Source of the DNA: an uncultured Bacteroidales bacterium
GTDB taxonomy: Bacteria > Bacteroidota > Bacteroidia > Bacteroidales > Muribaculaceae
NCBI GenBank assembly: GCA_902774055.1
Contig: CACYGX010000003.1
Coordinates: forward strand, 114,751 to 178,750
Length of the DNA stretch: 64,000 nt
Direction: 5' to 3'
In this document: positions 22,199 through 27,973 of the stretch, one piece after another
How the letters are laid out: the number at the start of each line of letters is the position of its first letter
How positions within the stretch are numbered: the first letter of the stretch is position 1
Translations under genes and position numbers: made by a program
Notes under the pieces: model-generated
Databases searched by the model: none
What the model was told of the DNA's origin: nothing
The model's input: only the letters and a program-made list of their open reading frames with translations

Positions 22199-24082
22199 CT
22201 ACTTGAAGATTCGCTCGACCTGCCAGTTGTCGCGGGCAATCGTTTTGTCGGGCGACGGGGCGCCACGGTTGACACGCGTGTCATGCATGACCAGCAGGCC
22301 GATGGCTCGTGTCATCAAGATGTCGTCGTGCTTGCCTGGCCGTGCGGCATAACGGCCATTGTGCTCCTCATAGTCACGCATCTCGTTCACCGCATCGATA
22401 TCACGTTCGACATACTCATGGCACCGCATCACACGAATCAGTTCAGCAATCGCCATGCGCTTGGTCTTGACATTGGTGTGGAAGCCCAACTTGCGCGGCG
22501 CGCGTTCATACAGCCGGCCATAGACCCGGCTCAGGTCGCGCAGTATATATTCACTCTCGCCTGCCCGCGCCGCCTCGTTGGTGAGCGTGTTGCTCTCGAT
22601 CACAAGCAACGCCCGGTTGTAGTAACAGGCCAACTGCATCGCTTTCCACCCCAGCATGTCGTGGTCAATGTGCCCGCGCCACTGTGCCACGATAGCAGGC
22701 TGGCGGCCAGGCGAGCCCATGCGCCACACGGCAATCACCGAGTAGTCGCTCCCGTTGGACCGGCCGCCCACATCCACAACGACCATATATCGAGTCTGGA
22801 CGGGCGTGTCGCGTTCAGGCATCTCCCACACCTTGAGCAACCCGTTCGAGACGTTCACTAGACGGATGTTGCGCTTGGCTTCCACCCCCTCCAAGCCGTC
22901 AGCCTGGATGTCACCGATGAATATCGGCTCGAGTACACATCCCGCTTCGAGAGCATCCAGGTCCTTGCGGTCAAACGGATTACCGCCCGTCATGGCAAAC
23001 GCCTCACTCGACGTGGTCGGGTATTCGGCCATCATCATCTCGTGGCCACGATACTCTCGCCGCTTGTGATGATACCAGTTAACCTGTTCCAGCGTGCACC
23101 CGTCATTCCATAACTGCCGCTCATAGTCATCCATTTGTTGCCATAGCGCCGAGGCATCATCAACCGGCAATGAGTAGATGCTGATTTCGGTCCATGGCAC
23201 AAACAGCGGCTCCTTGTCGCTACATCCGGCAAGGGCCCGCAGCCACTCGTCGTGGAAATAGTCACCAACGCCGTTGGCGGTAGATTCGAGGACGATGACG
23301 GTCTCGGGCTTGAGGGCGATGCTGCCACACACGCTGCGCACCACCTCGTCGGGACTATGCATCGCACTGGCCTGCCAAAAGGCCACCTCACTCAAGTGGG
23401 CCATCGCGATGTCGTAGCCGCGAACAGCATCCTCGCTGCGCGCACTGCCCGTCAACACCAGGCAATCCCGTGCGGTGATTTGCTGCACGTTGGGCTGCCC
23501 TTCGAGTTTGGTGAACCGCGGCAAGTCGTCTTCATCGTCGAGCAATTCGCGGGGATAATGCCTTAGCAACAGGTTGTACATGCGCTTGAGGCTCTTGCTC
23601 GTGGCATGCATGTGGCCGCAGATGAGGCTATTCCACCCCTTGTGGCGCACGAGTTGCATCCATGCCAGATACATCTGTACCAAGGTGGAGCCACCCCACT
23701 GGCGCGCTTTGAGCAGAATCACCCTGACAGGGGCACCTGAAGCCCGTTGCTCCTCCATCACGGCCAGCAGGCGTCGCTGGGGCCTATTGAGCACAAATGG
23801 CACATTGCGTCCGCTTATCTTGTCCCTGATGGTCACGCAACGGACGCACCAGTACTCAAAATCCTCGACAATACGCACCTTGTCGCGTTCCACGGGTTCC
23901 AGTGTGGCATAATCGGGGCAACTAGCGATCACAGCGGTCGGCACCAGGCACTCACCCGCCTCAACCCTGTCGCCCCAGCATCCCACTCCCTTCATGGGGT
24001 CATACTCGTCCTGCTCCAGACAAGCATGACGCCGCTTGTTCTCCTCGAGAACTTCTTCAATCAATAATTCATTGTCTTTCAT
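22199..24082 (-). CDS. Phage terminase large subunit (orphan)
   Basis: A 627-residue terminase large subunit, the motor and nuclease that packages DNA into phage heads. The ATPase domain has a Walker A variant KARQWGGST (residues 125-133), Walker B with Glu232 (IAMAHLSEVAF) and the coupling motif ESTANG (266-271). The RNase-H-fold nuclease domain keeps its acidic residues: Asp437 (VVVDVGG), Glu496 (IESNTL) and the Asp pair 586-587 (GKHDDILM). No frameshift or premature stop is visible and base composition matches the host genes. It follows a 665-residue putative structural protein by 15 bp. Portal, capsid, protease, small terminase and integrase genes are all absent from the flanks, so this is a domesticated or decayed prophage remnant. 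Confidence 0.88.
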   Translation of the reverse strand: MKDNELLIEEVLEENKRRHACLEQDEYDPMKGVGCWGDRVEAGECLVPTAVIASCPDYATLEPVERDKVRIVEDFEYWCVRCVTIRDKISGRNVPFVLNRPQRRLLAVMEEQRASGAPVRVILLKARQWGGSTLVQMYLAWMQLVRHKGWNSLICGHMHATSKSLKRMYNLLLRHYPRELLDDEDDLPRFTKLEGQPNVQQITARDCLVLTGSARSEDAVRGYDIAMAHLSEVAFWQASAMHSPDEVVRSVCGSIALKPETVIVLESTANGVGDYFHDEWLRALAGCSDKEPLFVPWTEISIYSLPVDDASALWQQMDDYERQLWNDGCTLEQVNWYHHKRREYRGHEMMMAEYPTTSSEAFAMTGGNPFDRKDLDALEAGCVLEPIFIGDIQADGLEGVEAKRNIRLVNVSNGLLKVWEMPERDTPVQTRYMVVVDVGGRSNGSDYSVIAVWRMGSPGRQPAIVAQWRGHIDHDMLGWKAMQLACYYNRALLVIESNTLTNEAARAGESEYILRDLSRVYGRLYERAPRKLGFHTNVKTKRMAIAELIRVMRCHEYVERDIDAVNEMRDYEEHNGRYAARPGKHDDILMTRAIGLLVMHDTRVNRGAPSPDKTIARDNWQVERIFK

Positions 24083-24097
24083 GGCATTATAAAGTTT

Positions 24098-26095
24098 CTA
24101 TCGGTGAGAACCGCTATATAGTAGCACGGGCAGGAACAGGGTGCCCGTCATAGCCTGGCCACTCGATTCAAGGCGCAGGGTGCGCGCTGGGACGAGCATC
24201 GGCGCTGTGGCCAACGGATGGTCAACGGCACCTGCCACCTCCATGACGCTCACATCTTGATTACACGACATGATACCTCGCTGACCCACCACCTTGAGCG
24301 TCAAGGCCACATCATCGCCGCTCACATGCCACACCACCCGCTTGACACAGTTCGCCATCAAGGCATGAAGGGCAACGGGATGGGTACGCCAGATTACAGA
24401 TTGCATGATGGGCACTTCCTGCTCCAAATCCCGTACCGTGCCATCACTGCTAACGGCAAGGGCATGAAGCGGGTCGCTCCACAATTGTACGGCCTCCACG
24501 CTGCGACGACTCATCGCACCGCTCGGCATCATCACCAGCGGCTCGCCAGTGCGAGGCAACAGCCACAGTTCGCCATGGGCATTGCACCACGCCAGCGCGG
24601 TGTAGTCGGCATTGCGCTGTACCACCGTCAACGCGGCTCCTCTCAGTCGGCACAGGTGACGGTGACGCGAGACGAAATAGATGTCATTTCCCGCCTCGAC
24701 CGATCTCACGTCAGCAGCGATGACAGTACGGTCAACCAGGCGCGCTTCGCCCAAAGTCCCCGTAGCACTCTGCGGAATGGCATAGATGCCATCGTCGGTG
24801 AACACATACACTGGATAGCGGCCAAAGCCGCCCGAGTACAATGGCCGCGTGACCACGGCTATCGCCAGGGGCTTGGCACCCAACACACTGCGGCGATGCA
24901 GCTCGACCAGGGCATTGCCTGGCGCACTCACCACGACATCTCCCTGGCCAGTACAGCAATACAGACGTCCGCCCGCTGTCGTGGAGCACACGATATCGCT
25001 CAACGTTGTCATGGTGCCGACAGCGGCACATTGTGCGCGAGTGAGAGTCAACGGCTCCAGCGGGGCGACAAAGTCGTTGCCAGTCAGATGGTTGGATGCC
25101 GGAGCGCTGGCGACAAGTTGCCATGGCGAGGCGGCCAACTGCGATTCTATGGCAGCGGCACTGCGTCGGCTCAGACCCATTTCCAGCACATATTCCCTGG
25201 GAGAAATCGTGCGTGTCAGGCAGCGATAGTCGAGCGAACGTGTCGTCGTGAGCAGGGTCGCCTCCTGGGTGACCAACACATCAATGCTCTCGACCAGCGG
25301 CAGCCACTCGTCGGCAATACCGCTCAGCACATCGATTTCCAGCGCATAATGGATCATTTGTAACGTACTGGACTGAATGCCTATAAAGCCGTTGCTATTG
25401 GTGATTACCGATGCCGCGATGCGGTCGGCATTAGCCAGGGTTACATCACCCACGCGTTGCGGACTACTCATCCACAGGTAGTTACCATCCTTGAGCCGCA
25501 CGGCCCAGCGCACCAGCATCGGCGCGGTGTGACGTCCATCGGCACGGGCATCGGCATTCAACGCATTCCAGGCCGCGTTCAGCAGGCGGGCCAGGGCCGT
25601 CGTGTCGGCACTAGCGAGCGGGGCACGCCACTGGGTATAGGTTTCCACAAAGGCATACGGCTCGATATCGGTCCTCATCGTGGCACTGTTTGCCGTGAAT
25701 TGCAGTTGCGGAACGGCATCCTCGGGGTTCAGCACCATCCATCCCGTCCCGCTAGAAGCGAGATAGACCAGGCCTCCCTCGGTAACCACGACAATCAGTC
25801 CGCCGATAGCATGGGCACTGACTACCGCACTGACAGCAGTAAAAACAGTGATGCCATCAATTTTCACCCTGTTACCGATTACGGTCACATAGCGCCCATC
25901 GGCAACCAGCAGCAAGCGTTCGCCCGAGCGGATATTACCTATCGCTGCCGGGGCTCCAGTCACCTGCAGCGCATTCTCACATTCTCTGACGTTCAAGGCA
26001 TCTTCGGCTTGGCCGCACTGGGCAGCTTCGCCGTTGGTCAGGGGAACCATCCCCCTGGGGACGACTCGCGTCTCTTTCATCTTGTGTTTGTTCAT
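24098..26095 (-). CDS. Putative phage structural protein, beta-propeller-like (gp10 / head-tail stabiliser type guess)
   Basis: A 665-residue protein without signal peptide or membrane helix, built almost wholly of short beta segments that recur with a period of about 40-50 residues (LLLVADGRYVTVIGN, IVVVTEGGLVYLASS, RLYCCTGQGDVVVSA, PVYVFTDDGIYAIPQ, DIYFVSRHRHLCRL). This suggests a propeller or similar blade repeat, as in P22 gp10-like head-tail stabilisation proteins and related Bacteroides prophage proteins; the assignment is inference. It lies directly upstream of the terminase gene in the same direction and shares with it a TATAAT(A/G)CCATG start context. Start is taken at 26095; ATG at 26080 is also possible. 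An upstream in-frame ATG at 26194 would add 33 unlikely cysteine-rich residues. Confidence 0.5.
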   Translation of the reverse strand: MNKHKMKETRVVPRGMVPLTNGEAAQCGQAEDALNVRECENALQVTGAPAAIGNIRSGERLLLVADGRYVTVIGNRVKIDGITVFTAVSAVVSAHAIGGLIVVVTEGGLVYLASSGTGWMVLNPEDAVPQLQFTANSATMRTDIEPYAFVETYTQWRAPLASADTTALARLLNAAWNALNADARADGRHTAPMLVRWAVRLKDGNYLWMSSPQRVGDVTLANADRIAASVITNSNGFIGIQSSTLQMIHYALEIDVLSGIADEWLPLVESIDVLVTQEATLLTTTRSLDYRCLTRTISPREYVLEMGLSRRSAAAIESQLAASPWQLVASAPASNHLTGNDFVAPLEPLTLTRAQCAAVGTMTTLSDIVCSTTAGGRLYCCTGQGDVVVSAPGNALVELHRRSVLGAKPLAIAVVTRPLYSGGFGRYPVYVFTDDGIYAIPQSATGTLGEARLVDRTVIAADVRSVEAGNDIYFVSRHRHLCRLRGAALTVVQRNADYTALAWCNAHGELWLLPRTGEPLVMMPSGAMSRRSVEAVQLWSDPLHALAVSSDGTVRDLEQEVPIMQSVIWRTHPVALHALMANCVKRVVWHVSGDDVALTLKVVGQRGIMSCNQDVSVMEVAGAVDHPLATAPMLVPARTLRLESSGQAMTGTLFLPVLLYSGSHR

Positions 26096-26485: not shown

Positions 26486-27760
26486 TTAGTCTGTCCATTC
26501 GCCTGTCAGCAGGTAGTCGATCAGTGCCGACACATCAGCAATAGTGATTTCAGTGTCAAGGTTGGTATCGGCATTGGCCGTGTTGATCAGGCTAGCATCG
26601 CCAGTCAACAGATAGTCGATCAAAGCCGAAACGTCGGCAATAGTCACATCCTTATCATCGTTCACGTCACCACGGAGAACGGTGACATCGCCAGGAATAA
26701 CAAAGGTCGTGCCGTCGGTGTAATACAGGCGGTTGTTGAGCCAACCATACCACAGGCTGTTATTGTCGCCAGGAACCGTCAGGCCCCAGGTAATCGCGGT
26801 AGTGGTCACGTTGCCCGTGTTGCCCAGGGTGGCATTGCCGCCGCTATAGGTCATGTTGTACCACACGCCATCGCCAGCAGGATTCTCGGCATCCTTAATG
26901 TCACGCAGGGGCTGACCAGGATAATTCATTGTGCCGTCGCTATTCAGGACCATGTAGTTCTCACCCCAGCCGTAGCCATAGAGGTTCATCACATACACAT
27001 TGTCACCATCCTGATACATATACACATCCACGCTACGCGAGGTGTTGTCATACTCGTTGACAAACTCATGCTTGCCGTTAGGCTTCATCAGCTTGACATC
27101 GCGCAACAGCGGAGACACCTGGCGGGCAGTGTCGGTCGTCACGGTAGTCTCGCCCTTGCTCTTGATCGTTGTTGTCGTGATGGTCTCGATGTAGTAACCA
27201 AAGCCCTCATTGAACACGATAGAGCCATCGTTATTGATATTGCCAATCACGTTGGCAAGCGGGCCCTGGTTGAGCACCCATGCCTCGTTAACATAGTAGT
27301 AATTAACCGTCGTCTCGACTGTGATGACATTGCCGGCAGTAGTCGTCGTCTCGGTGCTGGTCACACTGGTAAACGGCTCATTGTTGGCGACCAAAGTCAC
27401 CTTTCCTGCGCTCAAATTGGCCTCGAGGGTCTCTTCAATCTCATACAGGATACCGTCCTGCAGGGTCACCACACCCGAACCGTTGGTAACCGCGGTCAGC
27501 CAACCGCCAACATTCGTCGGGTCACAGGGCACAGCCTGGAAGGCGCCATTAGCACCCTCAACACACTCATACTGGTGCAGGAACACGATTCTGTTACCGG
27601 TCATCTGACTACCGGACACGCCCAGCGTAGCAGGCTTCACAGACTTGGATGCGCGGTCCATTGCCGGCATGTACATCGGCAAGCCAGGATTAACGCGCGG
27701 CACGCCTGCCATGGCGGCAAGGCTTGCACATACACACATCAGCGCAATAAATCTCTTCAT
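26486..27760 (-). CDS. Secreted protein with two C-terminal dockerin repeats
   Basis: A 424-residue exported protein; the start at 27760 gives a compact signal peptide (MKRFIALMCVCASLAAMAG), while the in-frame ATG at 27835 would place 25 extra residues before it. The body (about 25-350) is beta-rich and Thr/Asn-rich with a central run of TTTTIKSKGETTVTT-like sequence and no recognised catalytic motif. The last 70 residues carry two dockerin repeats, RGDVNDDKDVTIADVSALID and ANADTNLDTEITIADVSALI, each with a calcium-loop pattern of alternating Asp/Asn. It has no calycin or PCMD domain. Like the other dockerin proteins in the window its partner (a cohesin) is not encoded here. Confidence 0.8.
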   Translation of the reverse strand: MKRFIALMCVCASLAAMAGVPRVNPGLPMYMPAMDRASKSVKPATLGVSGSQMTGNRIVFLHQYECVEGANGAFQAVPCDPTNVGGWLTAVTNGSGVVTLQDGILYEIEETLEANLSAGKVTLVANNEPFTSVTSTETTTTAGNVITVETTVNYYYVNEAWVLNQGPLANVIGNINNDGSIVFNEGFGYYIETITTTTIKSKGETTVTTDTARQVSPLLRDVKLMKPNGKHEFVNEYDNTSRSVDVYMYQDGDNVYVMNLYGYGWGENYMVLNSDGTMNYPGQPLRDIKDAENPAGDGVWYNMTYSGGNATLGNTGNVTTTAITWGLTVPGDNNSLWYGWLNNRLYYTDGTTFVIPGDVTVLRGDVNDDKDVTIADVSALIDYLLTGDASLINTANADTNLDTEITIADVSALIDYLLTGEWTD

Positions 27761-27973
27761 ATAAGTCTTTCTTCTATTTGATTGTAAATTTCTTTCTATA
27801 TTAATATATGTACGGACCGAATGGGGCTGCCACACGTTCCAATCTGCAAATTTACAAAAAAATAGCCCAAGCCAAACAATAATTAAAGTTAATTTGTTCT
27901 ATTTGCCTTATTTAATACTATTTTCAGCAATAGAACCTCGCGACTGGACCCATATTATGGCCTATGTCGGACA

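Follow-up and report, generated by a model that had tools for sequence, protein, structure and literature searches.

A terminase-nozzle gene pair in an uncultured Muribaculaceae bacterium, probably one locus of a dispersed gene transfer agent derived from a temperate podovirus

Gene transfer agents (GTAs) are characterized in a 2022 review by proteins of caudoviricete origin, full endogenisation that often involves several loci, mostly vertical inheritance, particles that carry mostly random host DNA, a GTA genome that is not fully packageable, and the delivery of DNA to other cells (Kogay et al. 2022, PMC9662315). The same review counts three groups with an established genetic basis in 2022, namely alphaproteobacterial types I and II and the Brachyspira group, and a candidate GTA has recently been described in Faecalibacterium (PMC12946183). 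For gut bacteria, the excerpts of the latter article report GTA activity in Bacillota and, for Bacteroidota (Bacteroides), lateral transduction and not a GTA. Here we analyze a 64,000-nucleotide stretch of DNA from an uncultured Bacteroidales bacterium of the family Muribaculaceae (contig CACYGX010000003.1, positions 114,751 to 178,750; hereafter the window), in which a gene for the large subunit of a phage terminase (TerL) stands beside a gene for a predicted tail nozzle. We conclude that this nozzle-TerL pair is quite probably one locus of a GTA that was derived from a temperate podovirus and has been kept in Muribaculaceae.

The TerL gene lies at positions 22199..24082 of the minus strand and encodes 627 amino acids; its product would be the packaging motor of the proposed GTA. 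The protein matches PHROG terminase large subunits (phrog_2, best E value 1.2e-18). Its ATPase and nuclease residues are intact, and the motif KARQWGGST and the residues E232, D437, E496 and D586/D587 that the initial annotation had read from the sequence are all present. Residues K125, R127, G130, T133, E232, D437, E496, D586 and D587 are invariant across all 135 aligned TerL rows, which come from 80 named loci and 55 genomes, overlapping sets that hold 106 distinct sequences (cores). The closest annotated phage relatives of the protein are those of the Bacteroides phages BS-TP4, BKO1-TP3 and BF1-TP2, with 38-40% identity over 85-93% of its length. No IMG/VR contig matched peptide patterns for close relatives of the window TerL, Pfam gave no match up to an E value of 1 for either TerL or the nozzle, and NCBIfam gave none up to 0.001 for any of seven proteins submitted. 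The window TerL is matched only once in its own genome.

Two side observations concern terminases elsewhere. The Bacteroides phage records PQ571277.1, PQ571269.1 and PQ571263.1 label their terminase gene "tail spike protein", which is probably a mislabel, as notes in the records refer to structure matches with Terminase. Five close-clade genomes of the genus contain another intact TerL that shares about 40% identity with the first (L051 in G035, L052 in G033, L053 in G024, G037:C5 and G059:C76). In the TerL tree, the copies at L051, L052 and L053 are nested inside the genus on a long branch, and the second-TerL loci that were fetched have common neighbours, which at L051 are an AAA_25/primase-helicase-like protein and a DUF6371 protein. 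This second TerL is a diverged duplicate, perhaps with a role in a mobile element.

The partner of TerL is encoded 15 nucleotides upstream on the same strand, at positions 24098..26095, by a frame of 665 amino acids, or of 698 if it begins at an upstream ATG. As the initial annotation had held, both frames of the pair run without stops or frameshifts. Against PHROGs, the 665-residue protein matched a single family of unknown function (E value 1.1e-13), and a tblastn search of 50,697 phage records at 1e-5 gave no match; its phage homologue, BS-TP4 gp26, was recognized through matches to distant versions of the nozzle and to prophages. We obtained an AlphaFold2 model of the protein from 27 sequences, with a mean predicted local distance difference test (pLDDT) score of 91.9. 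The 20 best PDB matches of this model are all chains of phage tail or portal-tail complexes (HRP29, SU10, T7 gp12, P22 gp10 and others), the best E value being 3.4e-13 and the TM-scores by query length being moderate (0.30-0.48). Because of these matches, what had been annotated as a propeller-like structural protein, with P22 gp10 as the proposed comparison, can be specified further as a predicted tail nozzle of the short-tailed-phage type, with a T7 gp12/P22 gp10/SU10-type fold. The TATAAT(A/G)CC-ATG start context that had also been pointed out is indeed present in the window; since it was not seen in the 9 relatives checked, we give it no weight.

The pair had further been described as standing without any other phage gene. 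This holds for the six window neighbours that we scanned, whose significant Pfam matches are to the DUF6048, DUF6452, DJ-1/PfpI and dockerin families, and it does not hold for the genome: a portal, a scaffold candidate, a capsid and an endolysin are encoded on the same contig, 4-8 kb to the left of the window, in one 3.8-kb cassette on one strand (G000:C3:106886-110638, or L094:11887-15639, where the window is G000:C3:114751-178750). Using the BS-TP4 portal as query, we found a short, P22-type portal of 474 amino acids (match at G000:C3:106922-108262; PF16510 P22_portal, 1.7e-16). The BS-TP4 capsid likewise led to an SU10-type capsid protein of 467 amino acids (match at G000:C3:108906-110243, gene L094:13841-15244; PF17236 SU10_MCP, 2.1e-47). 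A 134-residue protein stands at the position of the phage scaffold and matches phrog_22323, the PHROG of BS-TP4 gp10, with a weak E value of 0.006; it is a scaffold candidate by its position and its distant homologues in the genus, a weak assignment. The endolysin is an M15 protein of 148 amino acids (PF08291 Peptidase_M15_3, 9.3e-19). The portal is 425-491 amino acids long in all 53 family sequences examined, compared with 622 and 657 in the two phages BS-TP4 and BF1-TP2, 612 in G087 and 653 in G081, the last two being genomes of other families.

Some further features of these genes and of the window deserve mention. The N-terminus of the capsid protein is hydrophobic and, in the copy of this genome (L094:13841-15244), includes a lipobox-like ...ILASC; the capsid genes of the two phage relatives (L071:16666-18108 and L146:16851-18287) also encode a hydrophobic start. 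Possibly, this start serves prohead assembly at the membrane. In three distant members of the genus, similar genes adjoin the endolysin-portal pair (L112:11022-11909, L105:11317-12213 and L256:9858-10754, the last with an AraC-type helix-turn-helix), and they are either a candidate regulator or a coincidence. Within the window, the gene upstream of the nozzle-TerL pair (26486-27763, minus strand) encodes a C-terminal type I dockerin domain (PF00404, 5.5e-9).

A tail adaptor was also found in related genomes. Its model (pLDDT 92.9) resembles tail-barrel chains of phiCrAss001 (3e-4), while its matches to SU10 (0.1) and T7 gp11 (1.5) fall below significance. Two profile searches matched the adaptor in 27 of 61 and 14 of 37 genomes of the genus.

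The genes of this machinery are dispersed over the chromosome. A portal match was found within the flanks of TerL in none of the 80 named loci (the best 80 of 298, with flanks of 46 bp to 10 kb per side), so that the pair is not confined to complete prophages in close relatives; the same flanks hold a weak capsid match in one locus (L181) and a nozzle match, weak in some, in 61. Among the matches listed, TerL and capsid share a contig in 12 family genomes; the shortest distance between them is about 7 kb, seen in two species of one genus, and the longest is 957 kb. The clearest case is the single-contig genome G266 (3,340,670 bases), in which TerL (936899), portal (1358446), adaptor (1539711) and capsid (1893624) occupy four sites over 957 kb, with neighbours that include a phosphoribosyltransferase, a POTRA protein, OmpH, an H+-pyrophosphatase, TsaE and an AraC-type regulator. 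G185 is an exception to this dispersal, with 0.7 kb between portal and TerL. In the genome of the window, the machinery lies at at least two loci. Local order is nevertheless kept among close relatives. We fetched 17 close-clade loci, 15 of which are drawable (L036 covers TerL incompletely, and in L032 TerL was missed by the picker of open reading frames and found by another search), and the pair and its downstream neighbours are conserved in all 15. The order portal-scaffold-capsid is seen in 11 of 12 close-clade loci, with the endolysin directly next in 8 of them. Distant members of the genus show either an inverted gene order or genes that no longer lie together. Other genera often have capsid, adaptor and portal side by side, their ends touching or overlapping (L264: 109-1377, 1377-1895, 1895-3301).

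Dispersed as they are, these genes are found nearly throughout the family. Among 61 genomes of the genus, that of the window included, TerL was matched in 57 and portal, capsid and nozzle in 59 each, with one of the nozzle matches (G038) a weak fragment. Across 297 Muribaculaceae genomes of 30 genera (E <= 0.001), we matched TerL in 274, portal in 277 and capsid in 270, each in 29 genera; for the 204 genomes with a completeness of 90% or more and a contamination of 5% or less, these numbers are 193, 194 and 192. By comparison, 40 genomes of other families gave three matches each for TerL, portal and capsid and two for the nozzle. Contamination of metagenome-assembled genomes was rejected as a source, since it cannot account for matches in most of the 297 genomes or for the single-contig G266.

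Two of the genomes from other families merit a separate remark. G081 (L049, L128, L129, L130) and G087 (L050, L124, L125) also have TerL, portal, capsid with adaptor, and nozzle distributed over separate sites, although the portal of G087 adjoins the nozzle. We exclude them from the present system because their portals are of full length and their TerLs group with phages; they perhaps represent an independent instance or an earlier stage of the same process.

Pairwise dN/dS ratios (nonsynonymous to synonymous substitution rates; Nei-Gojobori) indicate purifying selection. For ten species pairs and six genes, with a gene set that varies by pair, the ratios are 0.07-0.24 for TerL, 0.11-0.17 for the nozzle, 0.05-0.12 for the portal, 0.02-0.20 for the capsid, 0.17-0.35 for the scaffold and 0.07-0.15 for the endolysin, a full range of 0.017-0.354; the pairs G236/G152 and G120/G161 gave no value, and several of the values are unreliable because dS exceeds 2 or is saturated. 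Both genes of the pair thus lie well below 1. The initial annotation had considered that the pair might be a very recent remnant. This reading finds no support in these ratios, in the constancy of the pair and its downstream neighbours in all drawable close-clade loci, or in the TerL matches in 57 of 61 genomes of the genus and 274 of 297 of the family. A chance open reading frame was rejected alongside a recent remnant and a recurrent prophage.

Descent is largely host-like. We compared tree distances in 24 genomes, having found rpoB in 27 of 30 genomes sought and dropped G044, G117 and G197, where it is split or short (G152, with 866 amino acids, and G144, with 1207, were kept). The distances correlate at 0.75 for TerL-portal, 0.73 for TerL-capsid and 0.84 for portal-capsid, and those of the three genes correlate with rpoB at 0.67, 0.53 and 0.47. 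In each of these six comparisons, none of 2000 shuffles reached the observed correlation. Pairs of trees have 8-13 of 21 splits in common, against shuffled means of 0.22-0.33; the agreement is only partial, because in each comparison more than one third of the splits are not shared. The TerL tree, in which the family is represented by 29 of its 55 genome rows, unites BS-TP4, BF1-TP2, the compact prophages G042:C41 and G079:C81, and G081/G087 in one clade (100*) that contains no family TerL, and it places two more distant phages outside that clade.

From these observations, we propose the following course of events, in which the order of steps is based on podovirus assembly in general. Muribaculaceae would have captured a temperate podovirus related to BS-TP4 and BF1-TP2, probably at an early stage of the family, and we infer that this happened once. 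The captured phage would have lost its replication and integration genes and ended with a short portal and with its genes scattered over the chromosome. The SU10-type capsid protein and the scaffold would assemble a prohead on the P22-type portal, and TerL would pump pieces of host DNA into the heads, cutting headfuls. Given that the genes are scattered and that no integration gene was recognized beside them, the DNA in filled heads would be expected to come mostly from elsewhere on the chromosome. Adaptor and nozzle would then close the heads to give short-tailed particles, the M15 endolysin would lyse the producer and release them, and the DNA would enter recipient cells of the producer's own or a related species. 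Retention may be due to an advantage that gene exchange or repair brings to kin. We also lean, with less assurance, towards a broader statement, namely that Muribaculaceae carry a family-wide, working, short-tailed GTA, which they acquired from a temperate podovirus roughly when the family arose and which most species have retained. No GTA would have been described in Bacteroidota before it, and bacteria of the mammalian gut and rumen would have in it a permanent means of exchanging genes. Retention for a host purpose had been one of the options offered in the initial annotation, on the premise of a pair standing alone. That premise was wrong; among the purposes then named, GTA-like packaging is now favoured, since the remaining head and tail components, including the capsid and portal genes on the same contig, are found elsewhere in the same genomes.

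Several results weigh against this interpretation. The system is known here from its genes. The adaptor was not found in the genome of the window with three profiles, nor in any of the 17 close-clade genomes at E <= 1e-3 or in G012, G016 and G029; in the window's own clade, it has been lost, replaced or become too diverged. A small terminase, a needle, an ejection protein and a receptor-binding protein were not identified either, without a profile search for them. Weak matches make up 30 of the 270 for the capsid (E values 3e-13 to 7e-20; 25 in genus g70, 4 in g44 and 1 in g47), so that a clear capsid relative is present in 240 of the 297 family genomes. The genomic context was examined for only part of the family-level matches, some of which may be prophage genes or fragments. 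Parts are missing from some well-assembled genomes: TerL is unmatched in G105, G151 and G202 (each 99% complete), where capsid and portal are both matched, and G137 has a TerL match without capsid or portal. The capsid gene was matched as two pieces in G007 and G015, and stops lie inside some matches, for example of TerL in G040 and G054 and of the nozzle in G021, G058 and G059. Because the base of the TerL tree is open, a single origin of the family TerLs is not shown. Finally, the G012/G029 portal and the G225/G201 TerL (L324, L108, L330, L332) are each a single locus far more or less diverged than the rest of the species pair, with proportions of synonymous differences (pS) of 0.415 against about 0.05 and of 0.18 against above 0.70, which indicates some replacement between species.

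The scattered genes might instead be decaying prophage remains, in which case BS-TP4-like phages would have integrated repeatedly and independently, with TerL and nozzle as the last survivors in the window. Related temperate phages do exist and infect Bacteroides, a single origin of TerL has not been demonstrated by its tree, and two of the searched genomes contain compact prophage-like loci (G042:C41 and G079:C81). These compact prophages, however, belong to a different TerL clade from that of the family. Decay is also hard to reconcile with intact frames under the dN/dS ratios given above, with TerL and portal matches in more than 90% of family genomes, with trees that agree with rpoB, with the conservation of the pair and its downstream neighbours in every drawable close-clade locus, and with portals that are short in every family sequence. 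We therefore regard this explanation as very unlikely.

Conservation and selection would be equally expected if the genes had been domesticated for a host function other than transfer, such as capsids that trap invading phage or satellite DNA, the storage of host DNA, or a device for lysis or killing. Since the adaptor was not found in the window's own clade, the particles could lack a tail or be altered, and no delivery part (fibre or needle) was identified. A nozzle, on the other hand, is expected only on a particle that ejects DNA, 8 of 12 close-clade loci have the endolysin gene immediately after that of the capsid, the motor and nuclease residues of TerL are invariant, and purifying selection acts on TerL, portal and nozzle alike; we consider such a function unlikely. 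A provirus that is split yet complete, or a helper-dependent satellite, with pieces that are joined on induction, would explain why podovirus head, motor and tail-tube parts are recognizable in several genomes. Such pieces would have to be joined across up to 957 kb in a single-contig genome, the scanned neighbours are ordinary host families with no integration gene recognized beside the parts, and descent follows the host, all of which makes this possibility hardly credible.

Muribaculaceae are abundant in the mouse gut and in the rumen. If the GTA interpretation is true, a podovirus-derived GTA kept through a Bacteroidales family would extend the list of domestications to another phylum and could be tested as an origin of the host DNA that virus-like particles of the gut contain and of genetic exchange among members of the family. 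Because the parts are so scattered, prophage finders may miss these genes. VirSorter2 and VIBRANT are reported to give no prophage in Muribaculum intestinale (PMC10197239), which would be a case in point if that strain carries these genes. No report of a Bacteroidota GTA was found in the literature searched, which left out most subscription journals and all bioRxiv preprints, and the excerpts of PMC10892684 held nothing bearing on one.

How, then, does this system compare with those already described? Its closest phage relatives found are BS-TP4, BF1-TP2 and, by TerL only, BKO1-TP3, and BS-TP4 also has homologues of the portal, capsid, scaffold, adaptor and nozzle. These phages differ in having genomes of 64-68 kb, and BS-TP4 and BF1-TP2 further differ in an integrase or tyrosine recombinase, giant proteins, longer portals and a separate TerL clade. 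The tail parts of SU10, T7, P22 and phiCrAss001 resemble the nozzle and adaptor in fold, with 8-18% sequence identity in the phage matches listed, and belong to virions. From a prophage, the system differs in that no TerL locus among the 80 has a portal in its flanks, in the host families among its neighbours, which were scanned non-exhaustively, and in its low dN/dS ratios.

Among GTAs, FpGTA of Faecalibacterium (PMC12946183) also belongs to a gut bacterium and comprises TerL, portal, scaffold and capsid, and its particles carry host DNA; it is, however, a single 10.5-kb operon in Bacillota. BaGTA of Bartonella and BhGTA/VSH-1 of Brachyspira are likewise domesticated phages that are counted as independent GTA groups, and the BhGTA genome is likely dispersed too (PMC9662315); they belong to other phyla, and their function is experimental whereas that of the present system is inferred. 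The RcGTA of Rhodobacter capsulatus occupies several chromosomal loci (five in R. capsulatus), is inherited mostly vertically and has a 49-nm tail (PMC9662315). The present system resembles RcGTA and the other rhodogtaviriformids (alphaproteobacterial type I) in its caudoviricete-derived parts, its several loci and its mostly vertical inheritance. Compared by description and not by sequence, it differs in its podovirus-type parts (P22-type portal, SU10-type capsid, nozzle), in its Bacteroidota host and in the separation of head, motor and tail genes from one another. With regard to the features listed at the outset, caudoviricete origin is evident in TerL, the P22-type portal, the SU10-type capsid, the endolysin and the nozzle and adaptor folds. 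Endogenisation across several loci is seen in the genome of the window and in the four sites of G266, with host families among the neighbours scanned, and mostly vertical inheritance is seen in the partial agreement of the 24-genome trees with rpoB and with each other, apart from some single-locus replacement. The 957-kb span in G266 bears on whether the GTA genome could be fully packaged, which would also depend on head size. Because three of the six features are found, the system, as read from its genes, looks like a GTA and should work like one.

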